A DNA stretch of 64,000 bases from Sphaerisporangium rubeum. GTDB taxonomy: Bacteria; Actinomycetota; Actinomycetes; Streptosporangiales; Streptosporangiaceae. The position numbers and the translations under genes were made by a program. The number at the start of each line of letters is the position of its first letter. Position 1 is the first letter of the stretch. The DNA lies in the NCBI RefSeq assembly GCF_014207705.1, contig NZ_JACHIU010000001.1, forward strand, positions 2,534,501 through 2,598,500, written 5' to 3'. Of the stretch, positions 19,851-23,644 are shown piece after piece. Below the pieces are notes generated by a model that saw only the letters and a list, made by a program, of their open reading frames with translations, was not told the origin of the DNA and searched no databases.

Positions 19851-20249
19851 GGCAGGCGAGCCGGCCGGGCGGCCGCGTCGGGGCCAGGCCCCGCCGAGGA
19901 AGGTCCGGGCTCCACAGGGCAAGGTGGTCGGTAACACCGACCCGGGGCGACCCGCGGGACAGTGCCACAGAAAACAAACCGCCTCCCCCTTCGGGGAAGG
20001 TAAGGGTGAAACGGTGGTGTAAGAGACCACCAGCGCTCACGGTGACGTGAGCGGCTAGGTAAACCCCACCTGGAGCAAGGTCAAGAAGGGACTCTCGCAA
20101 GAGAGCCCCGCGCGCGGCACTTGAGGGCGACCCGTCCGAGTCGCGCGGGTAGACCGCTTGAGGCCGTCGGCAACGACGACCCTAGATGGATGGCCGCCTC
20201 TTCGCACCAGCGAAGAACAGAACCCGGCCTACAGGCCGGCTCGCCCGCC
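19851..20249 (+). ncRNA. rnpB: RNase P RNA (type A)
   Basis: Catalytic RNA that matures tRNA 5' ends. Universal elements are all present in order: GAGGAAGGTCCGGGCTCC near 19897, ACAGAAAACAAACCG near 19969, AGGGTGAAACGG near 20003, GAGCAAGG near 20073, CTAGATGGATGGCC near 20182 and the 3' ACAGAACCCGGCCTACAG near 20217. The P1 helix pairs CGAGCCGGCC near the 5' end with GGCCGGCTCG near the 3' end. Exact ends are estimated from P1. The last 30 bases are duplicated at 22244-22273. Confidence 0.96.
20220..20249 (+). repeat. Left copy of 30-nt direct repeat (rnpB 3' end; candidate attL)
   Basis: These 30 bases, the 3' end of rnpB, recur at 22244-22273 in the same orientation with one mismatch (GAACCCG versus GAACCCC near the left end). 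A repeat formed by the end of an RNA gene is the usual trace of site-specific integration that preserves the gene. Confidence 0.7.
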
Positions 20250-20292
20250 ACAACCCCTCTGACCAGCGCCGTCCGAGCACCAAGGCGAGGGG

Positions 20293-21852
20293 TCAGCAGG
20301 CGGTGTCGGTGGCCGGCAGTTCACCGGTGGTGAGGTAGTGGGTGACTGTGGCGTTGAGGCAGGCGTTCCCGTAGTGCGGGAACGGGGCGTGGGTGTGAGC
20401 GTCGATCGTGACGAGGCGTGATCCGCGGATGCGGGTGGCCACGGCTCTGCTCACGGACGGCGGCACCGCCACGTCCCGCAGGGCCGCGACGACAAGGGCG
20501 GCCGGCGCGCGGTTGCCGTCGAGCCGCACCGGTTCGTCCTTGGCGGAAGGCCAGAACGCGCATGGGTTGATGTTGGCGTTGACCGGGCCGAACAGCGGGT
20601 GGCGGTCCCGCTGGGAGACGATGTCGCGCAGGTAGACGCGCGGGTCGCGCGGCCAGGGGGCGTCGGCGCAGCGGTAGGCGATGTTGGTGGCGGTGTAGTG
20701 GCCGGCGGGCACGCCGGGCACACCCTCGGGCCGCGGAGGGCGGATGGGGAAGGGCAGGGACGGCTCCCGTCCGGACGCGACGGCGGCGAAGGCCGCGGCG
20801 GCGATGCCGAAGGCGCGCTCGTCGTAGATCCCGGCCACCAGCACGGCACCCAGCTCGCCGACGGTCCAGGGGTGACCGCCGATGACGATGGGGGCTCGGG
20901 TGGCCCGGTCGAGGATCCCGGTGAGGGTGGCGTGCACCTGTGCGGTGGTCTCCCCCAGGCCGTACTCGGGGTGCCGCCCGGCGGCCCAGGCGGCGAGGGC
21001 CATCGTTCCCTTCTCGAACGCAGGGGTGCGGCCCATCTCGTAGGGCCGCCAGATCGTGTCGGCGTTCACCGGGCTGTCCAGTACGAACCGGTCCACGCGG
21101 CGCGGGAACAGCGTGCCGTAGACGCTGCCGAGCAGCCCGGCGTACGAGCCGCCCAGGTAGGAGATCTTCTCCTCGCCGAGGGCCGCGCGGATGAGGTCCA
21201 TGTCGCGGGCGGCGTTCGCGGTGGTGGCGTGCGGCAGGGCCCAGCCGGAGGCCCGTACGCAGTCCTCGGCGTACCGCCGGGCCTCGGCGGCTTCGGCGGG
21301 GAAGCGTCCGGGGGCCGCGGGGCGTACCCAGAACCCGCTGGGCTCCTCCTCGGGCTGCCCGCAGCCGATGGGCGAGCTGCGCTCGATGAATCTCATGTCA
21401 AACCCGACCAGGTCATACCGCGCGCGGACCTCGGGGGACAGCGCCGGGGCGAGGCTCACGGGCAGCGGGACACCGGGCCCGCCGGGGCCGCCGCCGGTGG
21501 TGAGCAGAACACCCCGGCGCCGTGCCGGGTCGGTGGCGGGCAGCCGGGAGATGACGACGGAGATGGTGCGGCCGCGCGGGCGGCGGTGGTCGAGGGGGAC
21601 GGTTACCCGTGCGCATCGCAGGTCCGGCGTGCTCACCCCCGCGCACGCCTCCCAGCGCAGTCCCTTGCCGCCGGTGGCGGTACCGGGTGTGGCGGCCGCG
21701 GGGGCGGCCAGGGCCAGGGCGGCGACCGGTGCGAGCGTGGCGGCCGTCACGGCACGGACGAGGCGTCCGGAGGCCTGGGCCGCGTGGTCCGAGAGCCGTG
21801 TCACCCGGGGCAGGCGAGCGCCGTCTGGGGAGTCGCCTGTGGTGTCCGTCAT
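20293..21852 (-). CDS. Secreted S33-family alpha/beta hydrolase (tripeptidyl aminopeptidase-like)
   Basis: A protein of about 519 aa with an N-terminal Ala-rich signal segment (around residues 33-57, ending APAAAT). The fold matches SlpD/Tap-like exported peptidases: LRCARVTVPLDHRRP, oxyanion-loop TTGGGPGGPG, nucleophile motif GGSYAG (Ser near 236), Asp in ALRDVAVPPS and His in HTHAPFPHYGNACLN, with the C-terminal YLTTGELP. ATG at 21852 was chosen for the GGAGAG site upstream; another ATG lies 15 bases earlier. It is the only gene in the segment bounded by the rnpB-end repeats, so it may be cargo of an integrated element. Confidence 0.85.
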   Translation of the reverse strand: MTDTTGDSPDGARLPRVTRLSDHAAQASGRLVRAVTAATLAPVAALALAAPAAATPGTATGGKGLRWEACAGVSTPDLRCARVTVPLDHRRPRGRTISVVISRLPATDPARRRGVLLTTGGGPGGPGVPLPVSLAPALSPEVRARYDLVGFDMRFIERSSPIGCGQPEEEPSGFWVRPAAPGRFPAEAAEARRYAEDCVRASGWALPHATTANAARDMDLIRAALGEEKISYLGGSYAGLLGSVYGTLFPRRVDRFVLDSPVNADTIWRPYEMGRTPAFEKGTMALAAWAAGRHPEYGLGETTAQVHATLTGILDRATRAPIVIGGHPWTVGELGAVLVAGIYDERAFGIAAAAFAAVASGREPSLPFPIRPPRPEGVPGVPAGHYTATNIAYRCADAPWPRDPRVYLRDIVSQRDRHPLFGPVNANINPCAFWPSAKDEPVRLDGNRAPAALVVAALRDVAVPPSVSRAVATRIRGSRLVTIDAHTHAPFPHYGNACLNATVTHYLTTGELPATDTAC

Positions 21853-22513
21853 GTCGTCACTCTCCATCCTTCATGGGCACGTCCGCCGGTCGGGGGACTT
21901 TCGTACGGGTAGGGGTCTTGCTGCCGTGAAGGCTGGTTCGCGAGCGACCGGGGGGAGGCCGGGCCCTGACGATCATCTGGCGCGCAGGCCGTGTCAAGCC
22001 GGCAGCGCTGGTCCGATCATGTCGGCCTGGTCAGGCGGATCACTGCCCATTGATCGTTTTCATGGCGTTTCATGGTGCTCCCCGGTGAGCGGCCCGGCGG
22101 TGTCGAGACGCCGTGCACGCCGGTCGTGGGCCGGTGGCACGGCGTTGGGAGGCGGCGGAGGACAATGTCAAAGGATGGGAGCGTCAACGCAGTTCAGAGG
22201 GTAGATCGCCGGTCGGCGTGCAGGTCACGCGCAGGCCGGATCGGAACCCCGCCTACAGGCCGGCTCGCCCGCCTTCACCTCCTCGTCGTCGGGGGTTCCC
22301 CGGTTCTCAGCCGAGCGGCCTCGGTGTACTTATGAACGTTTCGGGCTGCTCCTGAGTGTTCACCCTGTTCGAGGGGTGGTGGGCTGTGTGGGCTGGGGTG
22401 AGGTGTTGGTGTCGGGTCGGGGGGTGTTGGAGCGTGGGGGGTCGACGACGCGGGGGAGCCGGGGTTTCCGGTGGGAGTGTCCCTGGGCCTCCGTCCTGAC
22501 ATCGAGGAGAGAA
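21853..22513. other. Intergenic region containing the right rnpB-end repeat
   Basis: 661 bases without a supportable gene. It holds the upstream region of the leftward hydrolase (a TTGACA-like sequence on the minus strand at 21997-21992, without a good -10), the right repeat at 22244-22273, and the promoter region of the LPMO gene. I looked for a tyrosine-recombinase remnant in all frames and saw none. Confidence 0.5.
22244..22273 (+). repeat. Right copy of 30-nt direct repeat (candidate attR)
   Basis: 29 of 30 bases equal the rnpB 3' end (20220-20249). The bases to its left do not match the rest of rnpB clearly, and those to its right differ from the sequence after rnpB, so the repeat has sharp edges. 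Confidence 0.7.
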
Positions 22514-23644
22514 GTGCGGATGAGGTTGCGTGTGTTCCCGGCGCAGGGGGACGGCGGGGAGACGTACGAGAGGCGGCGGCGCCTGCGGGTGGGGCGGCGG
22601 GTGGTGCTGGCGGTGGTGTCGGCACTGATGCTCACGCCGTTCATGACGGCGCCGGCGTCGGCGCACGGGGCCATCAGTGATCCGCCGGCTCGGGCCTACA
22701 GCTGCTACACGCGGTGGGCCAACGACTGGCAGTCGCCGCGGATGGCGACCGAGGACCCGATGTGCGACCAGGCCTGGAAGGCCGACCCGAACGCCATGTG
22801 GAACTGGAACGGGTTGCTCCGGGACGGGGTCGGCGGCAACTACCAGACGGCGGTGCCGGACGGGACGCTCTGCAGTGGGGGGCTGACCTCCAACGGCCGG
22901 TACGCGGCGCTCGACGTGCCGGGGCCGTGGAAGACGGTGGACAAGCCGAACCGGTTCACGATGAACCTGCTCGACGGGTCGTCGCACGGTGCGGACTTCA
23001 TCAGGGTCTACGTGACCAAGCAGGGGTTCGACTCCACCACGCAGCGGTTGCGCTGGAGCGACCTGGAGCTCGTGAACACGACCGGCAGGATGCCGACCGG
23101 GGCCACGACGCCGATCGACGTGTACGCGCCGGGACGTACGGGGCGGCACATCATCTTCACGCTGTGGCAGGCCAGCCACCTGGACCAGTCGTACTACTTC
23201 TGCAGCGACGTCAACTTCACCGGTGGCGGCCCCAGCCCGACGCCGACTCCCACCCCGACCCCGACGCCGACCCCGACGCCGACCCCGACGCCGACGCCGA
23301 CCCCCACCCCCACCCCCACCCCGACGCCGACCCCGACGCCGACCGGCGGCGGCCAGTGGTGCTCGGCGACCTACCGGGTGGTCTCGCAGTGGTCCGGTGG
23401 CTACCAGGCCGAGGTGAGCGTGGTCGCGGGATCGTCGGCCATCCGCGGCTGGGCCGTGAGCTGGTCGTCCGGCGGCTCCACGATCAGCAGTTCGTGGAAC
23501 GCCACCGTGACGACGAGCGGATCCACGGTCACCGCCAGGAACGCGAACTACAACGGCTCACTCGGCGCGGGTGCCGGGACGACGTTCGGGCTGCTCGGCA
23601 ACGGGACCAGCCCCACTCCGGCGCTGAGCTGCACCGCGTCCTGA
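22514..23644 (+). CDS. Secreted lytic polysaccharide monooxygenase (AA10) with CBM2
   Basis: Copper enzyme that oxidatively cleaves chitin or cellulose outside the cell. A positively charged N-terminus and hydrophobic helix end in APASA, giving mature [12 protein letters not shown] with the copper-binding amino-terminal His. The second histidine-brace His lies in [14 protein letters not shown]. The AA10 domain is followed by a (PT)n linker of about 40 residues encoded by a CCGACC/CCCACC repeat, then a CBM2-type module of about 100 residues with Cys at both ends and surface Trp residues. GTG at 22514 has GAGGAG 4 bases upstream; ATG at 22520 is also possible. A strong terminator follows. Confidence 0.93.

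Follow-up and report, generated by a model that had tools for sequence, protein, structure and literature searches.

A probable decayed integrative element at the 3' end of the RNase P RNA gene in Sphaerisporangium rubeum

Genes for tRNA and tmRNA are the textbook docking sites of integrative elements. The RNase P RNA, encoded by rnpB, is a nearly universal, normally single-copy and essential ribozyme. In this work we focused on rnpB of Sphaerisporangium rubeum, whose last 30 bases recur downstream of the gene and bracket a single hydrolase gene. The window, i.e. the whole stretch analysed, comprises 64,000 nucleotides (positions 2,534,501-2,598,500 of the single-contig genome of 7,504,604 bp, designated G000; G-numbers denote genomes and L-numbers loci). 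The closest described systems are the actinomycete integrative and conjugative elements (AICEs) and the cis-mobilisable elements (CIMEs). In a survey of 144 AICEs, as far as the part cited here goes, the great majority of those with a tyrosine integrase reside in tRNA 3' ends, the pSLS subfamily excepted (PMC3218068). Streptococcal CIMEs, in the portion of the source drawn upon here, keep their attachment (att) sites without recombination or transfer genes, form tandem arrays at a common site, and are mobilised once a functional element has accreted next to them (PMC7563491). The Islander study describes, in the passages used here, RNA gene 3' ends that are split and restored, the displaced fragment marking the far end (PMC4383910). 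With a probability of about 0.88, the segment 20220-22273 of the window is a decayed, CIME-like remnant of an actinomycete integrative element, the tyrosine integrase of which used the rnpB end (approximately 30 bases) as its chromosomal attachment site, attB.

The two copies of the repeat lie 2,024 bp apart on the same strand and are identical at 29 of 30 positions, as an earlier note on this DNA had stated, and identity stops at the ends of the 30-mer, also as described there. With up to three mismatches allowed, the 30-mer was found twice in the window and not at all in 100 dinucleotide shuffles. Its 22-base core, at the same stringency, had exactly two matches in the whole G000 genome and no third copy, so the repeat is not the dispersed element that the note had considered as the contrary outcome. 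The single mismatch, at repeat position 7, falls to the left of the central CCTACAGG, as would be expected if that half of the distal copy is element-derived.

The attachment site attP of a tyrosine recombinase consists of a core plus arm sites. A profile made from 29 right arms of other genera, with the core excluded, matched the window directly before the second copy (E=1.6e-12) and ended two bases short of it; the next match in the window reached 5.0 bits, and the best one in ten shuffled windows 7.4 bits. Because this profile was built from other genera and without the repeat, the match is independent support for integration. The loci of the genus, L177, L179, L180, L181 and L196 were left out of both arm profiles, L100 was not included, and the right-arm profile also lacked L082, L091 and the second copy of L118. 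Reasons for leaving out a locus were the lack of a clear arm, duplication or distant relationship. Two short motifs recur in the arms. GCAGGT occurs within 60 nt upstream of 32 of 42 distal cores, including that of the window, compared with 3.6% of random 60-mers taken from these loci, with a main peak at -24/-25 and a second at -55 from the distal core. The inverse motif GA[CG]C[TA]G is found in the first 34 nt past the rnpB core in 26 of 45 loci, mostly at +11/+12, against 8% of random 34-mers; L177 (a duplicate) and core pairs with more than five mismatches were left out of these counts. In G007, from the same genus, a left arm follows rnpB (E=1.4e-5), but the next 30 kb gave no right-arm match. 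An extra right-arm match (E=2.3e-8) lies at 8169-8281 of L045 (G004), inside an array and with no recognised core after it; it is perhaps a decayed junction between stacked elements.

Tyrosine integrases adjoin rnpB, in antisense, in several relatives, and the four tested match PF00589. Residues R217, K255, H321, R324, H347 and Y357 are invariant in 10 of 10 aligned integrases, and this R, K, H-x-x-R, H, Y series we take to be the catalytic residues of tyrosine recombinases, which the rnpB integrases thus retain. For one group of them, clade A, the integrase of G176 was compared with one genome for each of 84,980 species in a scan limited to six short peptides, which resulted in 35 loci. The core lay on the expected side in all 23 loci at E<=4e-17, which belong to Herbidospora, Planomonospora, Planobispora, Planotetraspora, Microbispora, Nonomuraea, Streptosporangium, Microtetraspora and one unclassified Streptosporangiaceae strain. 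It was the rnpB end itself in 22 of them and a tandem copy in L123. The distance from the end of the integrase match to the core was 56-123 bp in 18 of the 23 and approximately 1.0-1.3 kb in three; the integrase of L135 lies 3.5 kb past a distal copy and that of L115 5.9 kb from rnpB. A core was seen in none of the 12 loci with weaker matches (E>=6e-11); this makes a poor control, since most of them belong to other phyla, in which the pattern may fail to recognise the rnpB end.

The search for clade B integrases covered 341 family genomes, from which 30 loci were read. Nineteen have at least 52% identity: 15 of these are located at rnpB, two at a distal core and two at neither, one of the last two being at a contig end (G301) and the other in G115, to which we return below. 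Below 45% identity, the rnpB end was present in six of 11 loci and no core lay within approximately 1.5 kb in the other five, including G042, where the integrase is about 6 kb from rnpB. No core was found near four family integrases at 38-44% identity (G038, G092, G058 and G009). A tree of 33 hand-chosen integrases, 26 of them labelled as rnpB-associated, placed clades A and B apart and the non-rnpB integrases on the side of clade B (the rule used gave no ORF for L200, L201, L202 and L204, and L118 has none in the tree). On this tree the rnpB label requires four changes, three of them dictated by well-supported branches; these three may also represent one gain and two losses, and some placements are on long branches.

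Outside these genomes, a pattern-limited scan of IMG/VR gave no relatives of the integrase, the best-ranked phage relative was 32% identical, those in nine plasmid records were at most 34% identical, and no relatives of the clade B integrase were found elsewhere at E<=1e-30. G000 itself had no clade B match at E<=1e-40. Its best match to the rnpB integrase of G001, which falls on the same side of the tree as clade A (the query in G000 was this protein rather than the core clade A proteins), is 33% identical and lies at 1,302,313, adjoining a RepSA gene, 1.25 Mb from the cores. AICEs are plentiful in G000, as nine RepSA loci indicate (the nearest 1.25 Mb from rnpB), yet the searches there gave no integrase closely related to those associated with rnpB.

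The rnpB end is occupied in many relatives. When the 341 family genomes were scanned with the 22-base core at up to two mismatches, a narrow pattern that makes the counts lower bounds, 115 had a match, and at least 14, G000 included, had two or more same-strand copies on one contig; the reversed pattern, used as a control, gave at most two matches per genome. At the double-core loci the rnpB end supplies one copy, and any further copy is downstream of it; successive copies are 0.8-17 kb apart and bound different elements of about 0.9-17 kb. Stacked arrays are seen in G104, with three cores, and in G025, with a second integrase just past the distal core, and G176 is a further double-core case with a variant core. 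Fourteen additional family loci (L184-L197), picked mostly by their integrase, showed a second core in nine genomes (G169, G248, G267, G244, G214, G032, G239, G226 and G084), the rnpB copy alone in four (G051, G300, G281 and G042) and a poor second match in G105. The core differs by lineage, and the distal copy usually has the variants of its host, e.g. GAATCCGGCTTACCGGCC in G169 and its allies. A class-wide scan of 394 genomes gave, among the matches listed, at least three genomes outside the family with second rnpB-end copies 1.2-18 kb downstream of rnpB, L179 (G408), L180 (G425) and L181 (G430), which suggests that the hotspot is wider than Streptosporangiaceae; a fourth candidate, G432, was too weak. 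One of the 14 double-core genomes, G134, has a truncated second rnpB (two internal pieces plus the 3' end, approximately at 2360-2524 of L082) 1.6 kb past the intact gene, either a local duplication, perhaps, or an element with a longer rnpB piece.

Several of these elements are far more complete than the segment in the window. In L191 (G244) the cores are 11.2 kb apart and enclose NUDIX, GntR, FtsK-type Tra, DUF2637, RepSA (E=2.4e-159) and integrase genes, and L092 (Herbidospora) contains RepSA, FtsK and an integrase, so that both hold the integrase, RepSA and FtsK-type Tra of an AICE between two rnpB cores. A further 72 proteins of 12 rnpB elements, our own selection among 130 ORFs listed, gave six FtsK, five RepSA, four NUDIX and three GntR matches. 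The fuller elements with these modules are AICEs of the pSAM2 type. Other elements have different contents, the 17-kb L088 for instance a primase-like gene together with an FtsK-like protein and a match to the excisionase family (PHROGs). A 5.2-kb element in G001 has a full-length integrase, and integrase fragments are kept in G006 and others.

Within the genus, a collagen-like gene before sepF forms the far edge of the variable zone ("collagen-like" being a reading of its sequence; the one copy tested had no Pfam match). Its distance from the rnpB core could be measured in seven of 11 genomes: G009 (0.26-0.4 kb), the window (4.2 kb, to the first copy of the gene), G006 (5.0 kb), G002 (6.2 kb), G010 (6.9 kb), G008 (9.2 kb) and G007 (approximately 29 kb); in G001, G003, G004 and G005 the gene was not within the fetched stretch. 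G009 has one core and no left-arm motif, and is the best (near-)empty site in the genus. The two comparisons that the earlier note had proposed, a strain with one repeat copy and no insert and strains with different, integrase-bearing inserts at the same site, were thus borne out by near-empty G009 for the former and, for the latter, by G001 within the genus and by many other genera. No LPMO domain like that following the second copy in the window was found in the rnpB regions of relatives (tblastn, E<=1e-8, 30 loci), so the right flank is itself variable; in a longer stretch of G007 only the CBM2 part of the LPMO protein was matched (42% over 91 aa).

The features of the window are collected in the table below. 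The hydrolase gene, which we presume from the family name to encode an S33-type peptidase, is the only ORF between the two cores, in agreement with the earlier description of one secreted hydrolase and no recognisable integrase. In a tblastn search of the window, for which 15 integrases or integrase fragments and the ORF L095, which turned out not to be an integrase, served as the 16 queries, no integrase remnant was found; the best hit (E=0.083) lies outside the segment. An AICE module set (integrase, replication protein and FtsK-type Tra) was not seen in 20250-22243, and none of the RepSA matches of G000 lies there. The space beside the left core, taken by the integrase in many fuller elements, is taken in the window by the 3' end of the hydrolase gene. 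Close homologues of the hydrolase (at least 70% identity) are present in three of the 11 genus genomes, i.e. G000, G007 (89%) and G005 (70%), and more distant members of its family in all 11. The hydrolase and both copies are therefore not common to all relatives, the situation that the note had set against integration: only three genomes have the close hydrolase, and in one of them it is not at rnpB.

Table. Coordinates of the attachment site features and neighbouring genes (positions in the window)
Feature	Position	Strand	Basis and remarks
rnpB, RNase P RNA class A, full length	19857..20247	+	Rfam RF00010, 292.4 bits, model 1-367; 3' end is the putative attachment site
attL core (rnpB 3' end)	20220..20249	+	Repeat comparison; would stay whole upon integration
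Left-arm site GACCAG in CTCTGACCAGC	20261..20266	+	11 bases past core; motif GA[CG]C[TA]G of relatives; weak part
Block common to window and G007	20289..22092	.	92% over 20289-21762, 82% over 21892-22092; limits just inside both arms
Putative passenger gene, secreted alpha/beta hydrolase, TAP-like, 524 aa	20293..21867	-	ORF; Pfam PF08386 (TAP-like) and Abhydrolase_1
Right attachment arm	22138..22241	+	Right-arm profile, E=1.6e-12, 42.6 bits
Outer right-arm site GCAGTTCAG	22189..22197	+	55 bases before core; GCAGTT is a one-base variant of GCAGGT
Inner right-arm site GCAGGT	22220..22225	+	24 bases before core
attR core (second copy of rnpB 3' end)	22244..22273	+	One mismatch to first copy (repeat position 7)
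LPMO_10 with CBM2 domain	22376-23644		Follows attR

These data are consistent with the following history. The integrase would bring attP and the rnpB end together and exchange strands within their shared core; rnpB would be left whole, because attP brings the same 30 bases, and the old rnpB end would be displaced to the far side of the element. In the fuller relatives the integrase gene is antisense just inside attL, in some accompanied by RepSA, FtsK-type Tra, NUDIX and GntR. In the window the integrase, replication and transfer genes appear to be gone, leaving attL, attR with the arm sites and the TAP-like hydrolase. Most simply, we infer, an rnpB element carried or picked up the hydrolase gene and lost its integrase, rep and tra genes by deletion. 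Having no enzyme, the segment would not excise on its own, and might move with the help of an rnpB-specific element, through accretion of the latter next to it or by provision of the integrase. Two of the features that define a CIME can be recognised: attL and attR of one integrase specificity (the core repeat, the arm sites and the right arm at E=1.6e-12; the left arm by itself, at E=0.29, is not significant) and, in place of recombination or transfer genes of its own, the hydrolase alone.

Searches for a free attP and for the crossover gave less clear results. Core matches were obtained in 18 plasmid and 25 phage records. The two best phage records, MT835553.1 and MT836823.1 (L209 and L210), filed as Bacteriophage sp., look like bacterial contigs because they contain a complete rnpB and housekeeping-like ORFs, and the other phage matches among the best 20 of 25 have E values of about 4. 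Against plasmids, the segment gave matches only under hydrolase genes or unannotated DNA among the best 20 of 68. Mapping of the crossover by core mismatches, over 44 pairs, included several far-off pairs that were plainly spurious, and no overlap region is claimed. In more than 12 loci the P1 helix of the RNase P RNA has a C-A mismatch, its 3' strand reading CCGACTCG where the 5' strand calls for CCGGCTCG; this might be a sign of 3' ends brought by elements.

Several observations weigh against a decayed element at rnpB. Neither integrase, xis, rep nor tra genes were found in the segment, the best match of the left-arm profile in the window, at the expected place, is not significant, and none of the rnpB regions covered showed an empty site followed by the right flank seen in the window. 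The clade B integrase of G115 is not at rnpB, and no core was found there. The hydrolase block could have entered by another route, as that of G007 lies 5.7 kb from rnpB, where the search gave no right att site, and the G005 hydrolase is at another locus. Finally, if the 3' end of rnpB is swapped, its pairing in the P1 helix may differ between the copies, and here the result was mixed: among the 35 loci whose distal copy can be compared (one duplicate included), the right halves differ in 11, pairing is better in the distal copy in L042, L083 and L185 and in the proximal one in L089, L099, L127, L130, L179 and L194, the two pair equally well in L184, and in L090 the difference is confined to a third copy, which pairs less well. 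The 5' strand was chosen according to how well it fitted the proximal copy, and this biases the test towards the latter.

Other explanations of the repeat account for fewer of these data. A still functional minimal cassette, moved in trans by an integrase encoded elsewhere in the genome, would fit the presence of two nearly identical att cores and a right arm intact enough to be recognised in the profile search; the lack of a close rnpB-type integrase among the matches in G000 (none of clade B, the best other one 33% identical) makes it improbable. Still less probable is a partial tandem duplication of rnpB, through recombination or slippage, with the hydrolase gene caught in between. The truncated rnpB of G134, with homology reaching well upstream of the 30-mer, is what such an event might leave, but in the window the identity is confined to the 30-mer, and duplication does not explain why the DNA before the second copy matches the attR arms of other genera. 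The core also contains a GGCC-TACA-GGCC inverted repeat, so that a chance or structural resemblance, such as a terminator-like palindrome, comes to mind; with no match in the shuffles, only two in the genome and integrases flanking the same site in tens of species, we consider it hardly credible.

A decayed element at an integration hotspot therefore fits best among the options that the earlier note had listed, and a self-mobile cassette is not supported, as there is no integrase in the segment and no close relative turned up in the searches of the genome. The note's interpretation of the repeat as the footprint of site-specific integration at rnpB is supported by the arm profile, the integrases next to rnpB, the other inserts at this site, the AICE genes in relatives and the near-empty site. 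rnpB would thus be a family-wide docking site, used by at least two clades of integrases. The conserved site and its integrases may provide genetic tools for rare actinomycetes, the copies of the rnpB end an easy marker for locating unseen elements in such genomes, and the system as a whole a way to study how elements exploit the 3' end of a functional RNA without breaking it.

We found no report of rnpB as an att site among the titles and beginnings of abstracts listed in our search of the open literature, the coverage of which did not include the likely site catalogues (TIGER; Williams 2002, 2003); the mentions of rnpB or RNase P in the literature checked concern phylogeny, annotation lists and a promoter. 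The Islander principle applies to the locus in that an RNA gene 3' end would be split and restored, with a displaced fragment at the far end; the difference is that Islander searches tRNA and tmRNA genes, and neither rnpB nor RNase P occurs in the main text of that paper (PMC4383910). The segment resembles CIMEs in having att sites without recombination or transfer genes, the passenger here being a hydrolase, and differs from them in host phylum and site; its mobilisation in cis is proposed by analogy. With AICEs of the pSAM2 type, the elements of the relatives share the PF00589 integrase, RepSA (PF20199), FtsK/SpoIIIE Tra, NUDIX and GntR, the att core at an RNA gene 3' end, and arm-type repeats around the core, as in pSAM2 and pACPL in the part of the description cited (PMC3364876). 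They differ in having rnpB as their target, and the copy in the window differs further in carrying none of the modules. AICEs and CIMEs are thus known kinds of elements, and rnpB is, provisionally, a new target for them.

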